From NCBI RefSeq assembly GCF_024298845.1, contig NZ_CP101156.1, forward strand, positions 2,232,001 through 2,296,000: DNA of 64,000 nt. Reading direction: 5' to 3'. Made by a program: the position numbers and the translations under genes. Below the pieces are notes generated by a model that searched no databases, was not told the DNA's origin, and saw only the letters and a list, made by a program, of their open reading frames with translations. Every line of letters starts with the position of its first letter. Position 1 is the stretch's first letter. This document shows, piece by piece, positions 6,866 through 36,788 of the stretch. The stretch is from Natronosalvus amylolyticus. Its GTDB lineage: Archaea > Halobacteriota > Halobacteria > Halobacteriales > Natrialbaceae.

Positions 6866-9800
6866 ATGTCAATACGTACAGGGTTAGGGACCGCACTCGT
6901 ACTCATTATGGCGTTGTTGATGGCAACCTCTCCGGTTGCGATGGCAGCGCCCGGCCTCGCCAGCACGGACGGCGAGGTCGACGACGAGTTCAGTGTGGAT
7001 GAGGTGCTTACACAATCGACAAGTGAGGTAACGATCTCCTCGGAACTCGAGGCGGAAGCAAACAGTGGCGAGACAGTCGATGTCTTCGTTCGAATGGACG
7101 CCACAGAGTCACACACGTTCGCCGAAGTGACCGGCGACGCAACACCAGCGAGTGACTCACAGGCTGCACTCGAAGAGGAAGCCGAGATTACGCAGGCCCA
7201 ACTCGAGTTACACGCAGAGCGACTCGATGGCCTCACGATCAAAAACGAGTTCTGGATCACGAACGCCGTGCTGGTCGAAGTCGACACCAGTCAGGTCAAC
7301 CTCGATGATCTCGCACGCATAGACGGAGTGACTGAACTCCATCCGAACTACGAAGTGGACCTGATCGAGCCTGAGGCAGTCAGCACCAGTGCTGGTGACG
7401 TCTCCACGAATCAGGACGCAAATCACACCTACGGCCTCGAGCAGATCAACGCACCCGAAGCCTGGGAGGCGTTCGGCACTCGAGGCGAGGGCGTCAAAGC
7501 GGCCGTCATCGACACGGGCGTGAATCCGGACCATGAAGCGTTCGACGACTACAACACCTCGAACTGGGCGGCGTTCGATTTCGACGGAAACGAACGCAAC
7601 GTCACTCCGTACGACAATAACGGGCATGGCACTCACGTTGCCGGAACGGTGCTCGGCAACGATGCAAGCGGCAAGCACATCGGTGTTGCTCCCGACGCTG
7701 AGTTGCTCGCGATCAACGTCTTCCCCGAAGAAGGCGGAACGACGCTCGCAGCGATCGTCGCGGGAATGCAGAAAGCCGTCGATGAGGACGCAGATGTCGC
7801 CAACCTGAGCCTCGGTGGGAGCGGGTACGCTGGCATCTACATCGACGTGATCAAGAACGCGAAAGCAGCGGGAACCCACATCGTCTCTTCGTCGGGCAAC
7901 TCGGGCCCGGGAAGTGAGGGGACGCCAGGAAACGTCTACAACGGGACTGCTGTCGGTGCAACTGACATCGATCGCCAGGTGACCGGCTTCTCGACGGGGA
8001 CCGAAATCGATACCGCCGAGGAGTGGGGCTTCATCGCCCCCGATGACTGGCCGGACCACTACGTCACGCCTGACGTCTCCGCACCCGGTGCCGCCGTTAA
8101 CAGCTCCTACGTCGGTGGTGACGATGCGTACGCCGAACTCAGCGGAACGAGTATGGCCGCACCACACGTCACCGGTGCCGTTGCGCTGTTGATGGCACAG
8201 GACGATGATCTGACGCCAACCGAAGCGAAGAACGTCCTCGAGGAGACGGCGACGAAACCGGCACCGAACCAGATCAGTGACGCCACGGCTGGTGATGCTT
8301 TCAGTGTATCTGAGGACCAATTCGTCAATCTCCATTTCGATTCAGTTGCCGATGTCCGGTACGGAACAGGCATCATCGACGTGTACGCTGCCGCTGCAGC
8401 AGTCAACGACAGTAGCTCGACGGTGTCGGTACAAGTTGTCGATGAGGACGGTAATCCGATAACTGATAATAGCTATCCGCAGGCGCTACCTGACGGCAGC
8501 GGTGCACTCGTCACCCTTGGTGACGCCGACAGACAACAGTACGCACTCGACGGTACGGCGGCCTTTGAGGCCGTTGACGGTACGTACCAACTCGAGGTCT
8601 CTGATGCCTTCGGCTACGGACCCGCCAGCACGAACGTGACAGTCGACGACGGTGACGAATACGTCGAAGTCACGCTCGAGTCACAAATCGACGTTGCGCT
8701 CGTGCAGGGACAGCCAGCAGAGGTTCCGAGCGGTGAGAGGTTCGATATCGAGGTTGACGTGGCAAATCTCGAAGCGCTGACGGTCGAGTTACACGAACAG
8801 GCGACCGCCAACGCTTCGAACGTCAGTGTCATGTACGAGGGCGAAGACATCCTCGGGACCACCGAAGAGTTTGACCGACTCAATGGGACCGCGACGCTGA
8901 CCGTTGAGAACGACGCGGCAGCCGGAGAACTGATCGGGTTCAATCACACCTTTGAAGGACTCAATGACAGCCTCGAGGTGACGACCGGTCCAACAGTCGT
9001 CCTCGAATCGGATTCCGAGCCTGTACCCGTGCAGATCACCGCCACGGACTTCCCAGCTGAAGACTTCTACCTCAATCCGATCGATGGGGGCGAAGTGACG
9101 ATCGAAAACACCGGTGACTTCACCGAAACTGCGACCCTCGACCATATCATCGGTGGGGTACAAGGGACGTCCGGAGCCTTCGAACTCGGCCCAGGCGAAA
9201 ACGTGACGATTCCGTTGAGCTATACGGCACCGTGGGCGGTCCTCGGTGAGCCAGGAGATGACATCGATCAGTTCGTTACGATCACTCAGGATGGTCAAAT
9301 CGTCGATTTCGCCGTGGGAACGACGACCCTGACCGGTGCCGGCACGCTGAGCGGGACCGTGACCGACACCGACGGCGAACCGCTTGGCGGTGTCGAAGTG
9401 ACAGCAACTGACGGATTCGACACGTTCACCACGATTACTGACAGCCAAGGCCAGTACAGCCTCGATCCGGCGTTCCCCGGTCAGTACGACGTGACCGCTG
9501 GCTCAGGCAGTTACGGAGATGTTACCGAAACTGTCGTCATGGACGATCAGTTGACGCCGGTCGAACAGGACTTCGAGCTCGGTAGTGACCCAACGTTCAC
9601 CTTCACGCTGGAAGCCGACGAGACCTACTCGCTCGGTGTCCCAGCCGACATCGAAGGTGGTACCGTTGGTGACGTCTTCTCGAGTGAAGCCGAACTCGTC
9701 GTCTGGAAGTACGACGCGGCGAACAACAGTTGGGCTTCGACGACGAGTGAAACGGAAGTCAGCGCGCTTGATGCACTGGTCGTAACGACGAACGAAGACA

Positions 9801-11389
9801 CGACCGCAACGGTCGAATTCGCCGGTACACCCGGTCAGGACGAGACGTCCACGCCAGCACAGCGCGACGTCAGCGCTGGCTGGAACTTCGTCGCACCGTC
9901 GGTGTACGACGAACCCGAAGACGCCTTCGTGTCCACCGCAAGCGAAGACCGCGTCATCCAGATCCAGGATGAAGCGGGCTCGCAAATGGTGCCCGATGGT
10001 GGCTTCGACGGCGTGCAAACACTCTCGGGTCACGACAACTACGTCAACCCGTTCGCGGGCTACTTCGTGTTCGTCGACGACGACGCCACGATGGCCGGCG
10101 CAACGTACGACGGAATGACGCTCAACGAAGCCTACGACAACCTGAACATCGACGCAAGCGCGCTCGACGGTCAGGTCACGAGTGCCGTGACCGGCGAGCC
10201 AATCGAAGGTGCCCAGGTGTACGTTGCAGGAACGTCTCTGAGCGCGCAGACGGCTGACGACGGAAGCTACGTCATCCCTGCCTTGCTCGGCGGAGAGACC
10301 CAGAACGTCTACATCGACGCTGAGGGCTACGAAGGCACAGTCGTCGAAACCGGACCCGGGACGGCCAGTGTCGCGTTGCAAGACGAGGTGTACTTCAACG
10401 TGACCGACCTCGAGGTCGACCCGACCGAGTTTGCCGTCGGTGATACGTTCACCGCCAACTACACGATCGAGAACGAAGGTACCGAGTCGGCGTCCCAGAT
10501 TGTCACCTCGACGTTCGGACCGGCCGACGTACTGCCACGAGCGTCCGGTGACGCCTACGAACTCAACGCATCGGTAGTCGAACTCGAGCCTGGAGTGACT
10601 GAAACTATCGAAATTGAAGCCACGGTTGGCGACTTCGTCGCTGTCGGCGACCAGCAGGTGACGGTTTACACTGCTGATGACAGCGAGGCAGTCAACGTGA
10701 CTGTCGAGTACGGATCGGTCGACTTCATCCAGCAGGCTGCAGGCGATGACGAAGGAACGGCATACGTCGGTGCTGATGTCGAAGCGAACGTCGAGAGCGC
10801 CGTCGTCGTCACCTACGAGAGTGGCGAAGACCTCACGATTGCAGGACTCGACACGTTCGCTGCCGACGAACTCGACGGAACGACCCAGTTGATCGACGTC
10901 GAAGACGCCGGTGGCTTCCCCGGTGACCACACCGTTCACGTGATCCCGGTCGACGGGTTGAGCGAGTCGTACGCAGTCGGTGATACCGTTTCGGCTGAAA
11001 CCGCAGACGCGGTCTTCGATGCCGACACCGCGACCGTCCACGCCGCATCCGTCTCGATGGATGACCAGGAAGCGACCAACGGCAACCAGACCGTCGAGGT
11101 CAACACCTCCTCGGTCGAACCAGTGCCGGGCGATGGCTACTCCATCGCGATTCACAACGCCTCTGACCCGAGCGATATCCTCGGCTACAGTGACGTTCTC
11201 ACGGCAGATGGAGACAACGTGACGGTCACCCTCGAGGACCCACTCGAGGACGACACGGAGGTCTTCGCGATGCTCCACGTTGCTGCGAGCGAGAGCGATC
11301 CAGAGGGACCACCGATCACGCAGTACAACACAGACGGTGCAGCGGAAACGGTCATTTCGGAAGCCGTCACCGTCACGGTAACCGAATAA
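6866..11389 (+). CDS. Large secreted subtilisin-like serine protease (S8 family), multidomain
   Basis: 1507 aa. It has a signal peptide (about 1-28, hydrophobic core ending AMAAPG), an I9-like propeptide region (about 60-165) and an S8 catalytic domain (about 180-490). The triad is D216 (VIDTG), H254 (GHGTHVAG) and S429 (GTSMAAPH), with the oxyanion Asn in SSSGNSGPGS. A long beta-rich tail follows: two carboxypeptidase-regulatory-like folds (about 825-890, GTLSGTVTDTDGEPLGGVEV, and about 1105-1170), a CARDB-like stretch (about 1175-1280) and a DUF7282-like repeat (about 1285-1360). There is no PGF-CTERM and no C-terminal membrane helix, so it is likely released or held by a partner. The next gene on the same strand, 70 bases on, encodes a membrane-anchored surface protein. 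Substrate unknown. Confidence 0.95.
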   Translation: MSIRTGLGTALVLIMALLMATSPVAMAAPGLASTDGEVDDEFSVDEVLTQSTSEVTISSELEAEANSGETVDVFVRMDATESHTFAEVTGDATPASDSQAALEEEAEITQAQLELHAERLDGLTIKNEFWITNAVLVEVDTSQVNLDDLARIDGVTELHPNYEVDLIEPEAVSTSAGDVSTNQDANHTYGLEQINAPEAWEAFGTRGEGVKAAVIDTGVNPDHEAFDDYNTSNWAAFDFDGNERNVTPYDNNGHGTHVAGTVLGNDASGKHIGVAPDAELLAINVFPEEGGTTLAAIVAGMQKAVDEDADVANLSLGGSGYAGIYIDVIKNAKAAGTHIVSSSGNSGPGSEGTPGNVYNGTAVGATDIDRQVTGFSTGTEIDTAEEWGFIAPDDWPDHYVTPDVSAPGAAVNSSYVGGDDAYAELSGTSMAAPHVTGAVALLMAQDDDLTPTEAKNVLEETATKPAPNQISDATAGDAFSVSEDQFVNLHFDSVADVRYGTGIIDVYAAAAAVNDSSSTVSVQVVDEDGNPITDNSYPQALPDGSGALVTLGDADRQQYALDGTAAFEAVDGTYQLEVSDAFGYGPASTNVTVDDGDEYVEVTLESQIDVALVQGQPAEVPSGERFDIEVDVANLEALTVELHEQATANASNVSVMYEGEDILGTTEEFDRLNGTATLTVENDAAAGELIGFNHTFEGLNDSLEVTTGPTVVLESDSEPVPVQITATDFPAEDFYLNPIDGGEVTIENTGDFTETATLDHIIGGVQGTSGAFELGPGENVTIPLSYTAPWAVLGEPGDDIDQFVTITQDGQIVDFAVGTTTLTGAGTLSGTVTDTDGEPLGGVEVTATDGFDTFTTITDSQGQYSLDPAFPGQYDVTAGSGSYGDVTETVVMDDQLTPVEQDFELGSDPTFTFTLEADETYSLGVPADIEGGTVGDVFSSEAELVVWKYDAANNSWASTTSETEVSALDALVVTTNEDTTATVEFAGTPGQDETSTPAQRDVSAGWNFVAPSVYDEPEDAFVSTASEDRVIQIQDEAGSQMVPDGGFDGVQTLSGHDNYVNPFAGYFVFVDDDATMAGATYDGMTLNEAYDNLNIDASALDGQVTSAVTGEPIEGAQVYVAGTSLSAQTADDGSYVIPALLGGETQNVYIDAEGYEGTVVETGPGTASVALQDEVYFNVTDLEVDPTEFAVGDTFTANYTIENEGTESASQIVTSTFGPADVLPRASGDAYELNASVVELEPGVTETIEIEATVGDFVAVGDQQVTVYTADDSEAVNVTVEYGSVDFIQQAAGDDEGTAYVGADVEANVESAVVVTYESGEDLTIAGLDTFAADELDGTTQLIDVEDAGGFPGDHTVHVIPVDGLSESYAVGDTVSAETADAVFDADTATVHAASVSMDDQEATNGNQTVEVNTSSVEPVPGDGYSIAIHNASDPSDILGYSDVLTADGDNVTVTLEDPLEDDTEVFAMLHVAASESDPEGPPITQYNTDGAAETVISEAVTVTVTE

Positions 11390-13498: not shown

Positions 13499-13708
13499 GT
13501 GATTACTCGTAGCGAACCGACGGCGCGAAACGATACTGATGGCGAATCGGAATCGGAGGTCACGACCGAGTCTCGTATGGGACGGCGTTCGGCACTCACA
13601 CTGCTGGGTATCGCCGCGATTCCACTGGCTGCACAATCGGCGACGGCCTCGAGCGGGTCGGGGTACGGTGCTGACCCCTACGGAGCGGACGCCTACGGTT
13701 CGCAGTGA
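13499..13708 (+). CDS. Tiny Tat-exported peptide with YGxxx repeats, 69 aa
   Basis: GTG start at 13499; a later in-frame ATG begins MGRRSALTLLGIAAIPLAAQSATASS, which is a good Tat signal peptide (RR then a moderately hydrophobic core). After cleavage only about 19 residues remain, holding YGADPYGADAYG, two period-5 YGxxx units and a final YG. A TATA-like TTTTTTAAAG at 13438-13447 lies upstream. The 3' end overlaps the convergent gene by 16 bases. It is either a secreted short peptide or the stump of a longer YG-motif protein; the function is unknown. Two neighbouring Tat proteins carry the same motif. Confidence 0.6.
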   Translation: MITRSEPTARNDTDGESESEVTTESRMGRRSALTLLGIAAIPLAAQSATASSGSGYGADPYGADAYGSQ

Positions 13709-14520
13709 TCGTTCGAGTCGTCACTCTCATCGCCCGTGTCTGCGTTCTGGCGAAGACGCTCGAGTGCGAGCGCCGTTCCCGTAACGCCGACGGCCGTGAC
13801 TCCAGCCCCGAACCCGGGTGAGCCGTCGGCTGAGACGTTCGTTGCAGTGTTGTCATCGGTGTCGTTCGACTGATTGTCTGTAGCATCCGCGTTCGATGAG
13901 TCGTCCGATTCCGGTGTGGAGCCATCGTCGGAGTTCGTACTCGAGTCGTTTCCACCGTGCTCACTCGAGTCGTTGCCACTGTGCTCACTCGAGTCGTCCC
14001 CACTGGATTCACTCGAGTCGTCATCCACGATATCGTCTGCGTTCTCGTTACCGTCGGCAACCGATTCATCGGAACCTGAGTCACCATCATCATCGACTGG
14101 GGATGCATCTGCACTGTCGTCTGTGACCTTCTCCGAGTCGGTGTCTTCATCCGATCGGTCTGCACCAGCCGAGTCGTCATCCTCGAGGGCATCGCTATCA
14201 TCGTCTCGAGGTGGATAGACGCCGGTCCCACCGCTGTCGCCACTGTTGCTGTCATCACTCTCACTCGAGTCCTCGTCACCGTTCTCACTCGAGTCCTCGT
14301 CGGATGCATCGCCGTCGGATCCGGTACCCCCGGTATCATCGTGCTCGTCAGTATCCCCCTCTGGCAGGGTACCGTATGCACTCATCCCGTATCCACCCGC
14401 TCCATACGTTCCTTCGACAGTGCCATCGGTTGCACCGACACCGGCCGAGTGATACGCCACACCGTACGTCGCAGGGAGACCGACACCGACTGCCAACAGA
14501 TCTCGTCGAGTAAACCGCAT
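13693..14520 (-). CDS. Tat-exported Ser/Asp-rich protein with PGF-CTERM-like tail
   Basis: 275 aa. N terminus MRFTRRDLLAVGVGLPATYG is a Tat signal. It is followed within 20 residues by YGAGGYGMSAYG (period-5 YGxxx). Residues about 60-225 are low-complexity Ser/Asp/Glu/Asn with repeated DDSSE/NDSSEH units, a natural site for heavy O- or N-glycosylation. About 228-255 reads SPGFGAGVTAVGVTGTALAL followed by ERLR, a PGF-CTERM-like sorting tail that archaeosortase A would cleave while adding a lipid anchor. A short acidic extension follows the basic cluster, which is unusual for CTERM proteins. A TATA-like GTTTATACGTAC lies on this strand near 14585. Likely a cell-surface stalk or cover protein. 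Confidence 0.75.
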   Translation of the reverse strand: MRFTRRDLLAVGVGLPATYGVAYHSAGVGATDGTVEGTYGAGGYGMSAYGTLPEGDTDEHDDTGGTGSDGDASDEDSSENGDEDSSESDDSNSGDSGGTGVYPPRDDDSDALEDDDSAGADRSDEDTDSEKVTDDSADASPVDDDGDSGSDESVADGNENADDIVDDDSSESSGDDSSEHSGNDSSEHGGNDSSTNSDDGSTPESDDSSNADATDNQSNDTDDNTATNVSADGSPGFGAGVTAVGVTGTALALERLRQNADTGDESDDSNDHCEP

Positions 14521-14739
14521 ACAGTAGCGACACCTGTCGTCGACCTTACCGTCGTGGGTGAATATGTGTTCGTTTGAAAAGTACGTATAAACATACTATC
14601 ATGAAGATGTGATAGACAAGAGAGAAGGAGGGTAAGAATTTCCTGAGAGTATGATTGTAAAGAATATATCAAATGTGTGAAGGTCGGTTCACTCGAGCGA
14701 TCCGTCTCCGGAAGAGTGGCTCAAAACCCGTCACACGGA

Positions 14740-16926
14740 TCAAGATCGTGACTCGGTGTCCTTCCCATCGGTGCCGTTCGTCTTCGAGGAGAGGCGATTG
14801 CACAATCGGGCGGCCAGCACGAACAGCGATTCAGCGCGGTCTCGTTCGATCGGTTCGGTGTCGAACGTCGATCGCTCGTAGCCCACAGTGAGGTCGTACA
14901 ACAACGATACGTCGTCCGCATCGAAAGCAGACTCACTGGAGACCTGCTCGAAAAACTCCCAGTGAGTCCGGTCCCGCGCCTCGAGTGTCGGGTCGATGGT
15001 TCGTCGAACGGCCCCGTAACTGAATTGCATCGCGTCATCCGTCCGGCCGTCAGCGAGTGCGTCTCTCGCCTGTGAGAGCATGGTCGAGACGAGCCGCGAC
15101 TCAGTCGGTGGCCGCTGGCGTTGCGTACTGGTCGGGGAAAACTCCTCGAGAGAGCGATTCGAGCCCGAACGGCGCTCACGATACCACCATCCGCCCGCGA
15201 TAACCGCCGCGAGACCGAGCCCGCCCCAGACCCAAACCGGAACACTGACCGACGAATCACTCGAGGTGGCTGCCGTACCGACGGTCGTTTCGGCACTCGA
15301 GGAGGCGAGATTCGAGCCGGGGTCGTCGTAGGTCACCGACAGCGTTCGTTGGCCGTCGGTTGTCGGCACGCTCTCGAGGGTTTCGTCGAAGTGGCCGTCA
15401 GCGTCGGTTTCGATGATGCCGGCGCTCGTCCCATCGAGTGTCACAGTGACTGTTTCGTTCTCGAGAGCCGCTCCGTCCGCCGTCTCGAGTGTACCAGTAA
15501 CGTGGATGGCGTCGTCATCCTCGGCTGTCGCGTCCATGGAAATCGTCGTGTCGGTCTCGCGGATGGTTATCTCAGTTGTGTCACCCACAGGAGCCAGGGC
15601 TCGCTCTTCGAAGGCGAGCGTCACCTCGAGGTCGTGGTCACCGGCCGGTACCGCCCGTGGGAGGAGAAACTCGCCCTCGAACGAGCCGTTTTCGGCCTGA
15701 ATCGTCCCCAGCTGTTGGCCAGCGATAGAGACTGCTACCGGGACGGTGTCGACCGGAACCGACTCGGCGGAGATCGTTCCCTCGAGTGTTACCGTCTCGT
15801 CGTAGGCGCCAAATTCCGTCGTCGTCAGCTCCGAAATCGTGGGCTCGATCTGTTCGACCGAAACGTCGATTGCGGCTTCACTCTCGAGGTAGACGGAGCC
15901 GTTTGTGGGGACGGCCTCGATCGTCAGCGCAGTCGTTTCGAGGGGAAGTGCCGTCGGCCGGTACTCGAAGTCGAACGTACCGTCGCTATCGGTTTCGGTA
16001 CGGACCGTCTGGTTACCGACCTCGATACGGAGCGGTTCGTTGGCGACTGGCGAACCGTTCACCGTCCGAAGTTCACCCGTGGCGTTGAGCGGGTCGAGAA
16101 AGGAAATCGTTTCATCCGCACTCGAGAGTTCGAGCGTGGTTTCGACGAACTGTTCGCTCTGAATCTCGGTTCGGTCCGCCTGCACATCTTGAGTAACGGT
16201 GGCGAGACCGTCTCGAGACTCACTGAGGTTTCCGTCGGTTTCCTCCTCGAGGTCAGCGTGCTGGTCGTCGAGATCCTCGGCCAGCGATTCGATTTCGTCG
16301 CCGAGTTCGAGCAGACGACGGGCGTGTTGGCGCGCCTCACGGTCGTTACCGGCAGCCTGTGCTTCCTCGTATGCCTCCTTTACCGCGTCGTACTCCTCGA
16401 GCGTGTCGATCAGTTCGGTCTGTTCGTCCTGTGCGGTTTCGAAACCGTTGGGCTCGTCGTCCTCCTCGTCGGCAACCTCCACGTACTGGCCAGCGAGATC
16501 GCGGTACTCGTCGTCGAGATACGAACGAGCGAGATCGTACTGGCCATCGCTCAACGCGACCGTACTGCCAGCCAGCCGATCAGCCAACTGGTCGCCGAGC
16601 CACTGTCGAAGCCCATCCTGGTCACCACTACCCTCGTACTCATCCGGGTTTTGATGGCGAGGGGTCTCGTTTTCGGCATCGTCATCGGTGTCCGCTTGGA
16701 CCGACTGCTGACCCACGAGGGTCGTCGATACGAACAACTGGTTCGTGCTCGAGGGCACGTTCGCCGTCGTTTCAGGGAGTACGCTGGCGCTCGGTTCACT
16801 CGACGCACTCGAGACAGTGCTCACCTCACCGGTCGTTGCGGTGGCGAAACCACCACCGGCGACGGTAGCGAGGGCTACGCCTACCCCGAGCACACACACG
16901 AGAGTCGCTCCTCGAGCGGTAACCAC
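14740..16926 (-). CDS. Surface protein with cytoplasmic DUF4129-like tail (module A)
   Basis: About 728 aa from the GTG at 16926 (MVTARGATLVCVLGVGVAL, a clean signal peptide). A TTG at 16953 would add nine basic residues. After an acidic linker comes ETPRHQNPDEY, then an all-helical, coiled-coil-prone region (about 95-240) and several Ig/beta-sandwich repeats (about 260-545, GELRTVNGSPVANEP-like). One membrane helix (about 560-580, VPVWVWGGLGLAAVIAGGWW) leads to a cytoplasmic tail (about 610-700) with the DUF4129-like pattern ARDALADGRTDDAMQFSYGA...THWEFFEQ. It is a clear paralog of the protein at 54283-56397. Divergent from the DUF58 gene. In such modules the DUF4129 protein is thought to sense or transmit across the membrane, but the role is unproven. 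Confidence 0.85.
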   Translation of the reverse strand: MVTARGATLVCVLGVGVALATVAGGGFATATTGEVSTVSSASSEPSASVLPETTANVPSSTNQLFVSTTLVGQQSVQADTDDDAENETPRHQNPDEYEGSGDQDGLRQWLGDQLADRLAGSTVALSDGQYDLARSYLDDEYRDLAGQYVEVADEEDDEPNGFETAQDEQTELIDTLEEYDAVKEAYEEAQAAGNDREARQHARRLLELGDEIESLAEDLDDQHADLEEETDGNLSESRDGLATVTQDVQADRTEIQSEQFVETTLELSSADETISFLDPLNATGELRTVNGSPVANEPLRIEVGNQTVRTETDSDGTFDFEYRPTALPLETTALTIEAVPTNGSVYLESEAAIDVSVEQIEPTISELTTTEFGAYDETVTLEGTISAESVPVDTVPVAVSIAGQQLGTIQAENGSFEGEFLLPRAVPAGDHDLEVTLAFEERALAPVGDTTEITIRETDTTISMDATAEDDDAIHVTGTLETADGAALENETVTVTLDGTSAGIIETDADGHFDETLESVPTTDGQRTLSVTYDDPGSNLASSSAETTVGTAATSSDSSVSVPVWVWGGLGLAAVIAGGWWYRERRSGSNRSLEEFSPTSTQRQRPPTESRLVSTMLSQARDALADGRTDDAMQFSYGAVRRTIDPTLEARDRTHWEFFEQVSSESAFDADDVSLLYDLTVGYERSTFDTEPIERDRAESLFVLAARLCNRLSSKTNGTDGKDTESRS

Positions 16927-17126
16927 CCGGGGGGATTCTCGACGGCGACACAAAAGCTAGCCACTCGGGTCGACGTGACAATCCCTCGTTGTGAGTGTCC
17001 AGACTGTGAAAATGTGGAGTGGGAATCAGCCACTCGAGGATAACACGTGGTTGAACTGTACGACTCGGCGTAATCGGTCGTTTCCGCCCCGCACATTCAA
17101 ACGGGCGAGCGGTGTAGGGGCCGAAA

Positions 17127-18623
17127 ATGCATCTGACGGGCCGGTCGTGGACGATCGTTTCGCTCGTCGCAGTGCTCGCGGTTTTGGCGGGCGTCTTCGC
17201 ACAGCCCGTGTTGCTGGCCGGGGGCGCGCTAGTCGGAGCCTGGTGGCTGGGAATGCAGTACCGATTCACCAGGGAGGTCACACACCTTACCGGGTCGCTC
17301 ACCGTTTCCCAGTGGCCCGAGCGCTCGGGCATCCGGGTTGGTGAACAGACGCCAGTGACGCTGACTGTTCGTCTGGAAGAACCCGTCTCACTGTCGGTGA
17401 GCGTCGATGCAGGGATACCAACCGCGGCGACGGGAGCCCAGATATCGGTGGCTCTCGCGTCGGGCGAACGGGAGAGCGAGCGAACCGAATCGGTCACCTG
17501 GCCGGTCGCTGGCCGCCACGGGTTCGATTCCGCGACGGTGACAGTGTCGGATGACTTTTTCCTCGAGCGATTTCCGTTCGGACAGTGCCCCACAGTTACC
17601 GTCGAACCGGTGGGTCCGCGTCGGGTACACGTTGGCGAAGGTGGTGATCGATTCGCCATCGCCTCCGGCGACCACCGATCAGGCGGGCTCGGTTCCGGGT
17701 ACGAACCGGCCGAACTGCGCGAGTACCAGCCTACCGATTCGGCCGCCAGAATCGACTGGAAAGCCACGGCCCGACTGGCGACCCCGCACGTTCGTGCGTT
17801 CGAAGCTGAGACACACCGACGCACCCTGCTCGTCGTAGACCACAGAACACCACTCACAAGGGGGCCGTCCGGCGAGACGAAACTCGACTACCTCCGCGAG
17901 GTTGCGCTGTCGCTGGCCTCGAGTGCCAGTACACATAGTGACCCGGTCGGGTTGCTCACGATCGGTGACGACGGCATCACCGAGCGACTCGAGATATCGA
18001 CCGGACCGGAGCAGTACACACTCGTTCGCCGCTCGTTACTCGAACTCGAGGCGACGAACGACCACGCAGGCATCGATACCCCACAGGCCAGTACGTCGGG
18101 CGCCTCGGCGTGGCACGATCAGCAGGTCACCCCACGGACCGTCAGACGAGCACGTGATCACCTCGAGACGGACGTGAGAAGATCCGCTGGCACGATCGAT
18201 GGGGTAGGTGACGGTGACCGGTTCGCCGATCGCCTGTTACCGTTCTATCGCGTTCGAGCATCCGCACAGCCACGAATCGAATCAAACCCCCTCTTTCGCG
18301 CCCTCCGAGCCGAACTCTCGAGAGAGCCGGGAACCACCTGGACGGTCGTGTTAACCGACGACTCGAACCTCGCCGAACTGCACGAAGCCGTCACGCTAGC
18401 CCGGTCGAACGGGAACGATGTCCTGCTCCTCCTCACACCCTCGCCACTGTTCGAATCGGACGGACTCACCGGAATCGAACGTACTTACGACCGCTACCGG
18501 ACGTTCGAATCACACCGGCGAGACCTCGCCAGTATGGACCGAGTCTCCGCACTCGAGGTCGGCCCCAGTGATCGACTCTCGAGTATCCTCGCGGCGGGGA
18601 CGCGTCGGGAGGTCGCTCGATGA
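17127..18623 (+). CDS. DUF58 protein (module A)
   Basis: 498 aa. Two N-terminal membrane helices (about 8-45), a beta-rich extracellular-like domain (about 55-185), then the DUF58 signature REYQPTDSAARIDWKATAR from R198 and a vWA-like fold behind it (TLLVVDHRTPL, VVLTDDSNL). DUF58 proteins are partners of MoxR AAA+ ATPases, and MoxR-DUF58 pairs act as metal-dependent chaperone-like systems for surface or membrane complexes. The ATG at 17127 follows a 200-base divergent gap. Its stop overlaps the next start as ATGA. It is paralogous to 56493-57920. Confidence 0.9.
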   Translation: MHLTGRSWTIVSLVAVLAVLAGVFAQPVLLAGGALVGAWWLGMQYRFTREVTHLTGSLTVSQWPERSGIRVGEQTPVTLTVRLEEPVSLSVSVDAGIPTAATGAQISVALASGERESERTESVTWPVAGRHGFDSATVTVSDDFFLERFPFGQCPTVTVEPVGPRRVHVGEGGDRFAIASGDHRSGGLGSGYEPAELREYQPTDSAARIDWKATARLATPHVRAFEAETHRRTLLVVDHRTPLTRGPSGETKLDYLREVALSLASSASTHSDPVGLLTIGDDGITERLEISTGPEQYTLVRRSLLELEATNDHAGIDTPQASTSGASAWHDQQVTPRTVRRARDHLETDVRRSAGTIDGVGDGDRFADRLLPFYRVRASAQPRIESNPLFRALRAELSREPGTTWTVVLTDDSNLAELHEAVTLARSNGNDVLLLLTPSPLFESDGLTGIERTYDRYRTFESHRRDLASMDRVSALEVGPSDRLSSILAAGTRREVAR

Positions 18624-19297
18624 GCTGGGAGGTTCTCGAGAGGCGTGTTGACTGGCTGGAGCCGTTCGATTCACCGACCGGGCTTGCATTTGTGTTTCTC
18701 ATCGGGACGATGAGTGTGTTCGGCGGCGTGGCTGGGTTCGCTGCCGGGCTCCTCACGGCCGCAACCTGGCGCGCGTTCGGCGTCCCGTTCGCCATCGCGG
18801 TCGGCCACGTCGTGGTGGTCGGTCTCGTTCCCAACGGCCTCGGCATCGTTTCACTGCTCGTCTTCGAAGGCGCCTTCCTCGCCATCGTTCTTTTCGAGTT
18901 GTCCTGGGAGGCGTCATCACCCAGCGTGTGGGAGCGAATCCGAGCGCTCGAGCGACCATCGCAACCCGGGCAAACCGAACCGCTCGAGTGGCCCCGGTCG
19001 CTGCTCGAGCACTCGAATGTCGGAGACGTGACGGAGAGCTGGCAATCGGCTCCGACGCGAGTTATCGGGGTGACCGTCGGTGGCTACTGCCTGCTGGCGG
19101 GCGGTATCTGGGCAGGCCTCCGAGCGGATTCGGTGTGGCTCGCTGCAGGGGCGTTCCTTGTCGTGTTTTTCATGGTCGGCTACGGGATTCACAGATACCA
19201 GCGAGTTGCATTAGACATCGCCAATGAGGAAACCGCCAGATCAGATTACGAGCCCACCGATGAGACGGCGCACGATCCTTCCGGTGAGGCGGTATGA
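18620..19297 (+). CDS. Polytopic membrane protein of MoxR-DUF58 module A
   Basis: 225 aa with about six hydrophobic segments (FVFLIGTMSVFGGVAGFAAG, FGVPFAIAVGHVVVVGLV, VSLLVFEGAFLAIVLFEL, then two helices near 155-195) and a charged C-terminal tail. Starts inside the DUF58 stop (ATGA) and ends in the same way on the next gene, so the three are translationally coupled. The motif GVPFAIAVGHV is matched by GTPYAFAVGHV in the module B protein at 57917-58459, and VGYGIHRYQRVAL by VSYGIHRLELVRL. No enzymatic motif seen; function unknown. Confidence 0.85.
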   Translation: MSWEVLERRVDWLEPFDSPTGLAFVFLIGTMSVFGGVAGFAAGLLTAATWRAFGVPFAIAVGHVVVVGLVPNGLGIVSLLVFEGAFLAIVLFELSWEASSPSVWERIRALERPSQPGQTEPLEWPRSLLEHSNVGDVTESWQSAPTRVIGVTVGGYCLLAGGIWAGLRADSVWLAAGAFLVVFFMVGYGIHRYQRVALDIANEETARSDYEPTDETAHDPSGEAV

Positions 19298-20193
19298 GTT
19301 CCGAGCGCGTCGGGACCGATACCGAATCGGGACAATCGACATCATCGGAGGCGAGCGAAACGGCGCCGCCGGCGGAGGATGGAACGAAAGCGGACGACGT
19401 CGAACGTCGCGCCCAACTCGAGGTACTCGCCGAGGAGAACCGACAGCTACGCGAGGCCTACGTCAGCGCTCGCCAGTCACCGTATCGGAAAACGGCACAG
19501 GGGCTCGTGGTTCTCGGCCTCGTTGCGGGCCTCGGTGGTCTCTTGCTGCCCGATGGTCGTGACGTGCTGTTCGCACTCGCCGGAACCGGACTGTTCGGTG
19601 GCCTGCTCACGTACTACCTCACCCCGGAGCGCTTCGTCACCGCGGACGTCAGCGAGAACGTGTACGGGACGATGGCAGCGAACGAAGCCGCCATCGCCGC
19701 GGAACTCGGCTTGCAAGACGAACACGTCTACCTCCCGACGGGCGACTCTCGTCTGGCACGACTGTTCGTCCCCCAGCGACCCGAAACCGAACATCCGTCG
19801 ACGCTTACGACGCCGCTGGTGACCGACTCAACCCATCGTGGGGTAGTGCTCGAGGCGACGGGAACCGAACTGTTGCGCTCAGTGAGGCGAACGCTCAAGG
19901 ACGAGTTCGCCCGCTCACCGACAGAACTCGGCGACCAGCTGGCAGATGGTCTCGTCGAAACGCTCGAACTGGCCCGGAGTGCGGAGGTCGACGTCGATGC
20001 CGACGACGGACGGGCGACGGTCGCGGTCGCTAAAAACGAGTTCGGCGACCTCGAACAGTTCGACCACCCGGTGGCCTCGTTTTTCGCCGTCGGATTCGCG
20101 GTTGGCCTCGAGCGGGTAGTGACACTCGAGGTCGACGCTGACGCCGGGTTAGTCACCTGTCGGTGGGAGCCACAGAGCGAAACCGACGAGTGA
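19294..20193 (+). CDS. Coiled-coil plus two-helix membrane protein of module A
   Basis: 299 aa. An N-terminal acidic region and coiled coil (about 35-65, QLEVLAEENRQLREAY) precede a two-helix membrane hairpin (about 68-110, GLVVLGLVAGLGGLLLP...LFGGLLTYYLTPERFV). A long soluble alpha/beta domain (about 120-299) ends VTCRWEPQ. The order coiled coil, hairpin, LTPERFVTADV is shared almost exactly with the module B protein at 58456-59313. It is coupled to the preceding gene by ATGA. Probably the last gene of a three-gene operon with DUF58; no known function. Confidence 0.85.
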   Translation: MSSERVGTDTESGQSTSSEASETAPPAEDGTKADDVERRAQLEVLAEENRQLREAYVSARQSPYRKTAQGLVVLGLVAGLGGLLLPDGRDVLFALAGTGLFGGLLTYYLTPERFVTADVSENVYGTMAANEAAIAAELGLQDEHVYLPTGDSRLARLFVPQRPETEHPSTLTTPLVTDSTHRGVVLEATGTELLRSVRRTLKDEFARSPTELGDQLADGLVETLELARSAEVDVDADDGRATVAVAKNEFGDLEQFDHPVASFFAVGFAVGLERVVTLEVDADAGLVTCRWEPQSETDE

Positions 20194-20409
20194 GCGGAAG
20201 GGGAGTTCGCCCTGTCAAAACCTCAGAAGCACCGTCACTCGAGGGCACTTTCTCGAGATTCGGCCCCGTCGAGTGTGCACTCATCCCATTCGAAGAGAGC
20301 GTCTTTTTTCGGTGAGCGTCCGTGACAAATCCGAGGGGAGAAAAAGTCACAACATGTGTTCGTCACGAAATATAGGTAGTCAGGAAAACGTGACAGTGTC
20401 GTTCTCTCT

Positions 20410-21477
20410 ATGGAACCTACCCATCTTTCACGAACGGAACAGAATGAATCGACGACGCAAGACCGCCGGACTTCTACTGCCGACCGCTCTGATGGTGGAA
20501 GAACACCACCCTCGTCGAGGCTCGAGCGGCGATCGGTGCTCAAAGGACTCGCTACCTGTGCCGTTCCGCTCGTGGCCGGACAGACCGTCGCCGGCGACTC
20601 GAGCGGTGACGATGCGACCTATGGGAACGGAGCCTACGGTGCGGGCAGCTATGGCGGGACTGACAGCGGCGATCCGGTTACGGACGAACCGGACTCCCTC
20701 GAGCGGACGATTCTCATCGACGGCATCGGGACGACGGGTGAAAGCCAGTACGAAATCGAGGTCGACGGCTCCATCGAACCCTCGACGTACAAGGGCGCAT
20801 CTATCGACGACTCGACGGTCATCGAGGACGACCACGTCTCGGGGACGGTAACTGGCTGGCGAGATGCCTACCGGTTTTCCGGCGAGATCCAGTCGCTCAC
20901 CGTCGATGGGAGCGCACGCGTGTCCGTCGACGACGACCAAATCGACCCCGCCGAGTACGGTGGTGAAAGCGTGTCAGTCGTGACGGTCGTCGGCAACGGC
21001 GTCCCCTCACGATACCGGGTGACTGTCGAAAGTGACCTCGAGGTCCTCGAGGGCGACGCCGAACTGACGGTCTTGGGTGACACAGCCATCGGTGAAATCG
21101 AGACCGGCGTCCACCGCCTCAAGTTCACCGGCGACCTCCTCGAGTGTACCTTCGAGGAAGGTGGCACACAGGTCTACCTGGACGACGAACGTATCGACCC
21201 CGAGGAGTACGACGGTACCGAGCAACTTCCACACCTGATCGTCTTCGACGGAACGGACGCCGACGACTCGAGTCAGTACGCGTTCAGCGTCAGCGAAGGC
21301 GTCGAGCAATCGACCGACGACGGCGCCACGAAAACAACCGGTAGCGTGATCGACGGGAACGAGGTCCGTGGAAGCGTCGAAGCAGGCGAGAAAACGGCCT
21401 ACCGGTTCGACGGCGAGATCGAGACGTTCAGCCTCGTCGGAACCGCCGACGTCGACGTTTCCTACGACAGGTGGTGA
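20410..21477 (+). CDS. Tat-exported protein with YGxxx motif and three tandem beta repeats
   Basis: 355 aa. A long polar N region is followed by a Tat signal, ERRSVLKGLATCAVPLVAG. Directly after comes YGNGAYGAGSYGG. The rest is three tandem repeats of about 95 residues: about 95-190, 190-275 and 275-355. Each has a start like ILIDGIGTTGESQYEIEVDG, a middle like AYRFSGEI and an end like RVSVDDDQIDPAEYGG. The third repeat stops early at VDVSYDRW. Similar repeats are familiar as C-terminal modules of haloarchaeal beta-helix proteins; here they stand alone. A TATA-like GAAATATAGG lies near 20369. It has no counterpart in module B, so it is an insertion relative to that copy. Confidence 0.8.
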   Translation: MEPTHLSRTEQNESTTQDRRTSTADRSDGGRTPPSSRLERRSVLKGLATCAVPLVAGQTVAGDSSGDDATYGNGAYGAGSYGGTDSGDPVTDEPDSLERTILIDGIGTTGESQYEIEVDGSIEPSTYKGASIDDSTVIEDDHVSGTVTGWRDAYRFSGEIQSLTVDGSARVSVDDDQIDPAEYGGESVSVVTVVGNGVPSRYRVTVESDLEVLEGDAELTVLGDTAIGEIETGVHRLKFTGDLLECTFEEGGTQVYLDDERIDPEEYDGTEQLPHLIVFDGTDADDSSQYAFSVSEGVEQSTDDGATKTTGSVIDGNEVRGSVEAGEKTAYRFDGEIETFSLVGTADVDVSYDRW

Positions 21478-34444: not shown

Positions 34445-34807
34445 ACTACTGGTTGTGCAGGCGTCTACGGTTCAACCGGTCAGTCAAAGGCGTCTCTATT
34501 ACACGATTGACACCGTAAATTCCCGTCACCGACGGGCCCACCATTTGCTGCTCAGTATGCTATCCAGATGCAAAAACTACCACTCTACAATCACTTTATC
34601 GAGAACTATCAATTAACAATATTACTTTCGTAGGCATTTTGGAAAAGAGGCGAGAGGGTGAGTTTGTACTCTATAATCGCTCTGTGAACACTATCGAATT
34701 AAAGTATCTCAGTATGCTGGTACTGGACCTCCGAAGACAGGTCCCGATATAAAGGCTGCCCAATATCAGGAGAACGGATATGCGGTGAGCGCCACTCACT
34801 CGAGTTG
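34445..34807. other. AT-rich intergenic region between divergent glycan-locus genes
   Basis: 363 bases with no clear gene. Base composition is markedly more AT-rich than its surroundings (for example around 34590-34640). TATA-like GAATTAAAGTATC lies near 34695 and GATATAAAGG near 34748; either could drive the plus-strand genes that follow. No strong inverted repeat seen. Confidence 0.5.
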
Positions 34808-34996
34808 ATGGTAGTCGAAACCACGTGTTTCGCCAGCGGAAAAACGGTACTTTCCACTGACGGAACACCGGTTGGTCAGTATATCGACCAGGATGTGACT
34901 ATCGAAAACAATCTACCCTCCGTTGTTGCATCCACTGGCCCCGACGGTTTCCAGGATGAGACATCTGAATCTACGAAAAATCTACAATACCTATGA
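34808..34996 (+). CDS. Possible small protein of 62 aa, unrecognised
   Basis: ATG at 34808 (MVVETTCFASGKTVLSTDGT). The only support is a stop (TGA 34994-34996) that overlaps the next gene's ATG as ATGA, and a reading frame free of stops. No signal peptide, helix or known motif. It could be non-coding leader. Confidence 0.3.
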   Translation: MVVETTCFASGKTVLSTDGTPVGQYIDQDVTIENNLPSVVASTGPDGFQDETSESTKNLQYL

Positions 34997-35184
34997 GTGA
35001 TAGATACAACACCCCCGAACCCGGTAGCAGCGACTGGCACGTCCCACTTAACGAAAACTTCGAACAGATTGGGAGCGATATCGACGACCTCGAGGAATCA
35101 GCTCAGTTCTGGGGAGAATACGAACTCGTCTTCGACGACGAAACGCCCGAATCAGACACCTACATTCGCTTCAAGACGGAGTGA
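34993..35184 (+). CDS. Small acidic protein with NTPxxGxxDWxxPLNENF motif, 63 aa
   Basis: MSDRYNTPEPGSSDWHVPLN then ENFEQIGSDIDDLEE. This opening is widespread at the N terminus of haloarchaeal beta-helix and LamG proteins and of some virus tail-fibre-like proteins, where it probably acts as an attachment or trimerisation segment. Here it is a separate small gene. Its stop overlaps a GTG (35181) and lies 5 bases before the ATG (35190) of the LamG protein, so the two are translationally coupled and likely form one complex. Confidence 0.7.
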   Translation: MSDRYNTPEPGSSDWHVPLNENFEQIGSDIDDLEESAQFWGEYELVFDDETPESDTYIRFKTE

Positions 35185-35189
35185 TCTCA

Positions 35190-36788
35190 ATGAGTATTTA
35201 CGTTAATAACGGCGACGGCGAGCGGGAGCTGCGCGAAATAGAGACACCCCATGGTGTCGTCACGAGCGTTTCGGTCAATCACGGTGACGGCGACGGTGAA
35301 CAAACAGTGTGGTCGTCACTCTCGCAAATGGCTCTCCAGTTCGATGCTCGGCAGTTGGCTTTGGATGATGGGGACCCAGTTGCCGAATGGGAAACGACAG
35401 CCGGCGATCTGACTGCCGACCAGTCCAGTACGGATAGTCAGCCAACGTACGTGAGCGATGGTGTTGGTGGAAACCCATCTGTTCAGTTCGACGGCGAGCA
35501 GTATCTCGAGGTAGGGTATTTTGACGAAGACGATATCCTCGAGCAGCCATACACATGGGCAGCAGTCCTCCAACACGACCCAACGGGTGAGTACGATTAC
35601 GTCTTTTACGGAGCTGATGCCGATGAGCGATCGTTCCTCGAGTTCACTCCGGAAAACACTACTAGGCTCTGGGCAGGTGAGCCCGGTGGAATCAAGACCG
35701 GTATTCAGGGTCAGATCATCATCGGCGTAGTCGACGGTGGGGAAAGTGTCTTACATGTCGTTGATCCAGCAACCGGTGAAGAAGAATCGGTAAACGGCGA
35801 TGCCGGGTCGCTTTCTCATGCGGGACTGACAATCGGCGCCCATAGCGATAGCTCACGTGGATTTCAAGGACTTATCGCGGAATTGCGCGGCTATGATCGT
35901 CGCTTGACGTACGATGAACGTGACCAGTTGGTAAGGGGCCTCAAGGAGAGTTGGGAACCAGACTACGAACCAGATACACAGGGGGCTGACGCTACCTTCG
36001 CTTTCGATTTCGACGAACATAGCGACCCCAGTGAGATATATAGAGTCTGGACAGGGGCAGGTGATGCAAAATTCGTCAATTCACCGGCAGTAACTGGAAA
36101 ACAGTCCATGGCGATAGAAATCGAACCAACTGGACAGGGTGGTACGAATGCACATTTCAACCTGGAAGAAGCTCTAGGGTATCAGCCAACAGAATTGTAC
36201 GTCACTTACTGGTATCGGCTGGAAGATGACTTCTACATGGGAAATAACGATCAGATGAAAATCGCCCGAACTGGCCTTTCGTATTCTGCTGGTGGCGGTC
36301 ATTCTGGAGGGGGTAACAGTGAAGGTGATAATGGTTGGTCAGCTGGTATTGTTGCCGCGAATCGATTATCAGGTTCGGGCAACAGCGGACCATACAATAC
36401 GACGGCTTATCTATATCATATGGACGAGTACTCACAAGATGCCGATCGAAATGTTGAGTTTGAAGGCGGCCACCTCTATCCAGGCCAATGGCACTACTTC
36501 GAACAACACATTAAATTGAACACAGTCAGTAACGGAGTTGCCAACAATGATGGAGAGTATCGGTGGTGGATCAACGGCGATCTGATCTATGAGCGTACAA
36601 ACCTACGGTGGACTCACGATTTAGAGAACAACGCCATCGAGTATTCCGGACCGTACATTGGTTACGGTGGCGGAGAAGAATCACCACAATACCAAGAAGT
36701 CTACCACGACGAACATCGAATATTTGTCGATGCAGACGTCCCCACCCCGGATAAGCGACCACTCTTCACCGAGACTAATCGACAATAG
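35190..36788 (+). CDS. LamG-like plus polysaccharide-lyase-14-like protein
   Basis: 532 aa from MSIYVNNGDGERELREIETP; a GTG three codons earlier is also possible. Residues about 45-255 form a LamG/concanavalin-like jelly roll (VQFDGEQYLEVGYFDEDD, FQGLIAELRGYDRRLT). About 262-525 resembles a polysaccharide-lyase-14-type jelly roll (ELYVTYWYRLEDDF, GQWHYFEQHIKLN, GEYRWWINGDLIY, EVYHDEHRIFVD). No signal peptide, Tat motif or CTERM is visible, which is odd for a carbohydrate-active protein. Coupled to the 63-aa gene before it; ends 1 base before the convergent DUF354 gene. Binding or cleaving a surface polysaccharide is an inference. Confidence 0.75.
   Translation: MSIYVNNGDGERELREIETPHGVVTSVSVNHGDGDGEQTVWSSLSQMALQFDARQLALDDGDPVAEWETTAGDLTADQSSTDSQPTYVSDGVGGNPSVQFDGEQYLEVGYFDEDDILEQPYTWAAVLQHDPTGEYDYVFYGADADERSFLEFTPENTTRLWAGEPGGIKTGIQGQIIIGVVDGGESVLHVVDPATGEEESVNGDAGSLSHAGLTIGAHSDSSRGFQGLIAELRGYDRRLTYDERDQLVRGLKESWEPDYEPDTQGADATFAFDFDEHSDPSEIYRVWTGAGDAKFVNSPAVTGKQSMAIEIEPTGQGGTNAHFNLEEALGYQPTELYVTYWYRLEDDFYMGNNDQMKIARTGLSYSAGGGHSGGGNSEGDNGWSAGIVAANRLSGSGNSGPYNTTAYLYHMDEYSQDADRNVEFEGGHLYPGQWHYFEQHIKLNTVSNGVANNDGEYRWWINGDLIYERTNLRWTHDLENNAIEYSGPYIGYGGGEESPQYQEVYHDEHRIFVDADVPTPDKRPLFTETNRQ

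Follow-up and report, generated by a model that had tools for sequence, protein, structure and literature searches.

Three exported proteins of Natronosalvus amylolyticus, encoded in the 64,000-nucleotide stretch of DNA analysed here (hereafter the window), carry the motif YG(x3)YG(x3)YG behind a twin-arginine (Tat) signal, and the locus raises the question of what such a motif is for. The three motifs had been noticed in a sequence-only reading of this DNA, and all of them were confirmed in frame, at the noted positions, in Tat-exported proteins (Table 1). That reading had also placed them 15–25 residues after the signal. The motifs do follow the signals (MGRRSALTLLG.., MRFTRRDLLAVG.. and LERRSVLKGLA..), but they lie nearer, ~6–16 residues past the likely cleavage site. 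A search of the whole 4.2 Mb genome with the DNA form of the pattern returned three matches, all inside this one 7 kb, and the reversed control pattern returned none; we therefore concluded that the motif is not due to chance.

Searches of Pfam and NCBIfam assigned no family to any of the three tagged proteins. The open reading frame of the shortest starts with GTG, and translation from its internal ATG leaves the signal and the tag with almost nothing more. A counterpart of this mini-protein is conserved in the same-genus genome L034, and other proteins consisting of signal plus tag only were found at loci L043, L059, L060, L065 and L107. The second protein has an acidic stalk, and its C-terminus is weakly PGF-CTERM-like (13.6 bits, below the cut-off of 24.5).

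Table 1. Tagged proteins, YG tags and the DWH (candidate partner) locus, in window coordinates.
Feature	Position	Strand	Remarks
Mini-protein, Tat-type signal and YG tag only	13577..13708	+	43 aa from ATG 13577; 69 aa from GTG 13499
YG tag 1, YGADPYGADAYG	13664-13699	+	Two residues before C-terminus
Tat-exported acidic 275-aa protein with YG tag	13693..14520	-	Family in L034, L035 and L036 retains tag
YG tag 2, YGAGGYGMSAYG	14406-14371	-	In frame
Tat-exported 355-aa protein, no recognised fold, YG tag behind signal	20410..21477	+	No Pfam match
YG tag 3, YGNGAYGAGSYG(G) / YGNGAYGAGSYGG	20620-20655, with final G to 20658	+	In frame
Small ORF	34805..34996	+	End overlaps DWH start
Candidate partner, signal-less 63-aa DWH protein (MSDRYNTPEPGSSDWHVPLNENFEQIG...)	34993..35184	+	Profile match 2.0e-11
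Signal-less lectin/polysaccharide-lyase-like protein	35181..36788	+	Start overlaps DWH gene end

The motif was matched in 81 of 391 haloarchaeal genomes. We retrieved 20 kb around most of the coding matches and shorter stretches around the others, and frame accidents and tandem repeats were removed before the matches were sorted into classes. Nearly all coding matches lay at mature termini and fell into two classes, one directly behind a Tat signal and the other in the final 12–19 residues of Tat proteins, often with a lipobox and typically ending ...TTTTPEDDYGEQGYGEYGYGG. Proteins tagged at the C-terminus often carried a second element, [FY]GYGG, just past the signal. Internal matches were few: L041 has them in virus-like tail proteins, L073 in a single membrane-protein family, and L094-L097 in a zinc-ribbon-like family that repeats YGADDYG; the remaining locus is L008. 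The bodies of the tagged proteins were unrelated, comprising CBM6/CBM35, LamG, Fn3, weak H-lectin and ParA/MinD-like ATPase types; these ATPases and viral baseplate proteins are tag bearers that are not exported. The motif is peculiar to mature protein ends and not to Tat signals. A search of haloarchaeal proteomes for Tat signals followed by the motif had been proposed, and the 391 genomes did yield the post-Tat class, alongside the C-terminal one. No description of the tag was found among the open-licence papers searched. As a separate observation, the ParA/MinD-like tagged proteins (L043, L070, L071) fit a binding role in the cytoplasm and not an export role.

A terminal position bears on what the tag could do. 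The earlier suggestion of a processing site fits poorly with a tag that occurs at either terminus, is found on non-exported proteins too, and ends many proteins outright, leaving nothing behind it to cleave. The tag might also be a sorting or cleavage signal for a sortase-like enzyme, as in PGF-CTERM/archaeosortase proteins, whose tag on haloarchaeal surface proteins is likewise terminal and preceded by a Thr/Pro-rich stalk; long stalks of this kind do precede C-terminal YG tags. We regard this as very unlikely, since a PGF-CTERM combines a PGF motif, a transmembrane segment and a basic tail, whereas the YG C-tags have neither membrane segment nor basic tail behind them, either terminus is used, and viral structural proteins carry the tag as well. 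The neighbour clusters inspected contained no recurring sortase family, and only the protein at 13693..14520 gave even a weak PGF-CTERM score. Tyrosine clusters are a feature of bacterial tyrosine kinases such as CpsD, and a reading of the tag as such a cluster was dropped because most tags lie outside the cell.

We then scanned the neighbourhoods of the tag loci, and a single recurring neighbour emerged, a signal-less family here called DWH. Its N-terminal domain, the first 72 residues, aligned as YNTPxxGxxDWHxPLNENFxxLDxDVExRD...GAKFLATDTGxVYxGDGSxW. In about two dozen loci the DWH and tag genes share a strand, with the start of DWH 35–160 bp from the tag gene, and a hydrophobic N-terminus was present in 0 of the 74 proteins with DWH at the N-terminus. 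The converse retrieval, by DWH only, gave 69 loci, from named genomes, all haloarchaea, together with two loci of the present genome. A tag lay within 2.5 kb in 42 of the 69, mostly at the C-terminus of the gene directly upstream, and two further loci (L128 and L144) had degenerate tags. The 53 tags in these DWH-selected loci comprised 45 at the extreme C-terminus, 8 post-Tat and none internal.

Co-occurrence with one partner family, which the sequence-only reading had put forward as a check, was indeed observed. DWH was present in 52 of the 58 genomes whose tag was terminal or post-Tat compared with 51 of the 333 others (odds ratio 48; 391 genomes), and in 55 of 81 compared with 48 of 310 when every raw pattern match was counted. 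Because the raw matches were sorted by hand and genomes are not independent, the fairer figure is that by genus (DWH in 31 of 33 tagged and 12 of 53 untagged genera). Six tag genomes had no DWH gene that we could see, and 51 genomes had DWH and no strict tag. Where tag and DWH shared a contig, 50 of 61 tags were within 20 kb and 21 within 1 kb; haloarchaeal DWH loci were mostly in surface-polysaccharide islands, and since the tags occur in such islands too, the proximity at 20 kb is partly confounded.

The present genome contains two DWH genes. The one in the window sits in a polysaccharide cluster and probably shares an operon with the small upstream ORF; the product of the gene overlapping its end matched Polysacc_lyase (4.7e-5) and Laminin_G_3 (3.6e-4), neither match reaching the Pfam cut-off. 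The other, on replicon C5, lies between a lone tail-tube-like gene and the overlapping gene of a Tat protein with YGEGGFGVGGFG. Both arrangements are kept in the same-genus genome G253. None of the three tag genes adjoins a DWH gene, and we infer that the three window proteins use the tag/DWH pairing even though the DWH gene is 13.5–21 kb distant. The motif had earlier been read as a possible recognition tag for a partner in the neighbouring module. The partner is strongly supported, through gene adjacency and co-occurrence, with DWH as the candidate; the neighbouring module is not, the candidates being at that distance in the polysaccharide cluster and on another replicon. The MoxR/DUF58 module next to the tags is a highly improbable partner. 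Its genes do stand between or beside tags in the window and at L034, L036, L043, L057 and L070, but MoxR was found in 9 of 61 tag regions, whereas DWH adjoined the tag in most independently drawn loci and was present in every MoxR-linked tag genome checked.

The structure predicted for the 72-residue DWH domain (pLDDT 92.5) suggests what kind of partner this may be. The nearest solved folds were the phage receptor-binding heads Mtd and HylP, together with (collagen) trimerisation domains. Scores against the Mtd and HylP heads (Foldseek probability 0.97-0.99, E 0.07-0.2; VIA Z 2.9-4.2) formed a coherent but weak list; no PDB match reached an E-value under 0.001, and Z stayed below 5. Predicted viral structures matching the model were minor tail proteins, and one DWH protein scored to the Pfam family Mtd_N, the Mtd N-terminal domain (1.8e-4). 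A search of the DWH domain against GenBank phages gave no match at E 0.01. Downstream of the head, DWH proteins carried Peptidase_S74 (9 of 32), beta-helix, polysaccharide lyase 14 and PHROG tail fibre families, that is, the fibre-type domains of tail fibres and receptor-binding proteins. The predicted DWH fold is weakly similar to the heads of phage receptor-binding proteins, including Mtd and the HylP hyaluronate lyase. It differs from them in that the Mtd and HylP structures hardly cover the first 25–30 residues of DWH (YNTPxxGxxDWHxPLNENF), and in that most DWH genes are cellular and lie beside Tat proteins.

A similar pair was found in viruses. In the tail-gene run of the halovirus contig L181 a baseplate J-like gene is followed by a DWH fibre, then by a small gene and then by a baseplate-like protein starting MSHVGYGRGGYGSGTYGDGGY, an N-terminal YG tag; this baseplate protein had no match among GenBank phages. 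In the virus-like run of L041 a Tat-YG gene overlaps a fibre-like DWDDPLNENF gene. When viral contigs were drawn by the YG pattern alone, 7 of 12 C-terminal tags were followed by a gene starting PxxGxxxWxxxLN. This rule had been written after three cases were seen, and it was therefore fixed in that form before a further set of viral contigs, selected solely by a C-terminal tag, was examined. The next gene started with PxxGxxxWxxxLN in 29 of 49 (strict) or 37 of 49 (loose), and 15 of 29 non-redundant families passed the strict rule after near-copies were removed; the background, in contigs pulled by a frame-broken pattern, was 3 such motifs per 1.26 Mb. Viral tag bearers included central tail fibre J-like proteins, and the genes after the tags encoded HylP hyaluronidase, tail fibre, tailspike and minor tail proteins. 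Matches of one tagged protein to Streptomyces phages were set aside, as they were to its body and not to its tag.

Because the tag is linked to fibre-like genes and the same pair occurs among phage tail genes, it looks like a docking device common to cells and viruses. We consider it probable that YG(x3)YG(x3)YG serves, at protein ends, as a docking peptide for the heads of phage-tail-fibre-like proteins, which in haloarchaea holds, and perhaps co-exports, such proteins at the surface. The presence of both parts in tailed viruses in the same order could also mean that the genes are linked only by shared viral ancestry or operon inheritance, the tag serving, for example, the folding or assembly of its own protein and binding no fibre. 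An AlphaFold model of tag, linker and DWH as one chain (monomer) is in line with this, the tag being disordered (pLDDT about 35) and undocked. Even so, we think this reading unlikely, given that the same head domain adjoins the tag on many unrelated proteins (CBM6/35, LamG, H-lectin-like, Fn3, ParA/MinD-like, baseplate and central tail fibre J) and that mini-proteins of signal and tag only adjoin DWH genes (L059, L060). Fibres need not be involved at all if the YG repeat acts at the surface as an aromatic sticker, binding polysaccharide or associating with itself, as the position of tagged genes in surface-polysaccharide clusters and their frequent carbohydrate-binding domains would allow. This is distinctly unlikely, for it leaves unexplained the strict terminal position, the immediate DWH neighbour and the tag in phage tail genes.

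Under the docking reading, the tag in tailed phages would end a protein of the tail tip or baseplate region, and the next gene would encode the fibre, with PxxGxxxWxxxLN in its head. Haloarchaeal tags would sit on Tat-exported, often lipid-anchored surface proteins, frequently with carbohydrate-binding domains, and the partner would have a DWH head and, behind it, beta-helix, lectin, lyase or S74 chaperone domains. Since the DWH partner lacks a signal, the fibre is probably picked up by the tagged protein while still in the cytoplasm and may pass through Tat as a hitchhiker; the carrier would then hold the fibre at the cell surface, usually beside surface-polysaccharide genes, and signal-plus-tag mini-proteins such as that at 13577-13708 would be bare adaptors. 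Direct binding of the tag to the fibre head is quite likely in our judgement. Co-export of the fibre-like partner with the tagged protein through Tat falls a little short of an even prospect, and the size of a trimeric fibre may exceed what Tat can pass. PDB sequence searches with the tag and the heads returned no solved structure of the pair.

Known systems offer partial parallels. In eCIS anchor domains eBAP1-5 and P2-type gpI, the N-terminal domain of the fibre attaches to a baseplate or Tail_P2_I-type protein encoded nearby (PMC12923769), and L181 is similar in that its J-like gene, its DWH fibre and its YG-tagged baseplate-like gene are near neighbours. The eCIS anchors are helical bundles or DUF6519, and the passages considered mention no short YG peptide (PMC12923769). 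An eCIS fibre gene lies within a sheath/tube/baseplate operon; haloarchaeal DWH loci are not so placed, and the C5 locus has only its lone tail-tube-like gene. In Tat hitchhiker export, as with HybO/HybC and PaoABC, a signal-less partner is encoded beside the partner with the Tat signal (PMC4273604), and DWH proteins lack an export signal in the same way. In those pairs recognition is between folded subunits, whereas a short, modular tag would be shared by many carriers in the present case, where co-export is a possibility.

The finding is real and more general than had been proposed, and the present analysis adds both the partner and the extension to viruses. Tentatively, a docking device widespread in tailed viruses could have been taken over by archaeal cells, in which tagged Tat lipoproteins, membrane mini-proteins and bare adaptors would bring fibre-like lectins and lyases that have no signal through the membrane as cargo, a modular means of display and export in which the cargo requires no signal peptide. 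If the docking reading is true, a 12-residue tag would predict, for many phages, the protein to which a fibre is attached, and it would help to annotate phage tail genes that are now nameless. For archaea, it would explain how signal-less fibre-like proteins could reach the surface, and it would give a testable role to hitherto unannotated Tat mini-proteins.

The first two tag genes of the window were convergent, and their 3' ends shared 16 bases (13693-13708); a large secreted subtilase lay shortly upstream of the tag genes. On replicon C5 of the same genome, a DWH fibre-like gene and its Tat-YG neighbour had a tail-tube-like gene immediately 5' of them, the only tail gene in 20 kb.

Tags of the YGEDGYGEQGFGE type formed the C-terminal ends of small membrane proteins in Haloarcula loci L130, L131, L132, L139, L145 and L153, and in locus L062. 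These proteins were ~70-90 aa long, contained RR followed by a single hydrophobic segment, and had DWH genes a few kb away. In loci L045, L047, L048 and L092, the DWH motif was located at the C-terminal end of the protein. It came after QYGGY, KYGGY or TYGGY, and a short coiled-coil-like stretch behind it closed the protein. The neighbour of the divergent fibre head in a metagenomic virus started with MSDIIRWGTYEWGNDYYWGSEVY, possibly a WG-type variant of the YG tag.

Features of the window and of the retrieved loci (L)
Feature	Location	Strand
Secreted subtilase, 1507 aa, carboxypeptidase-regulatory-like repeats	window 6866-11389	
ParA/MinD-like ATPase, YG-tagged tail	L043:13423-15270	-
ParA/MinD-like ATPase, YG-tagged tail	L070:8439-10094	+
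ParA/MinD-like ATPase, YG-tagged tail	L071:11103-12491	-
Metagenomic virus locus, divergent fibre head and neighbouring protein	L183:9379-10059	
Lone tail-tube-like gene, phrog_4542	L239:9478-9924 (own genome, C5)	

In the three ParA/MinD-like ATPases, the YG tag was the end of a long low-complexity tail, and either the MoxR cluster or Tat proteins with an N-terminal tag were encoded close by. A possible role of these tagged ATPases is the intracellular positioning of fibre-like cargo.
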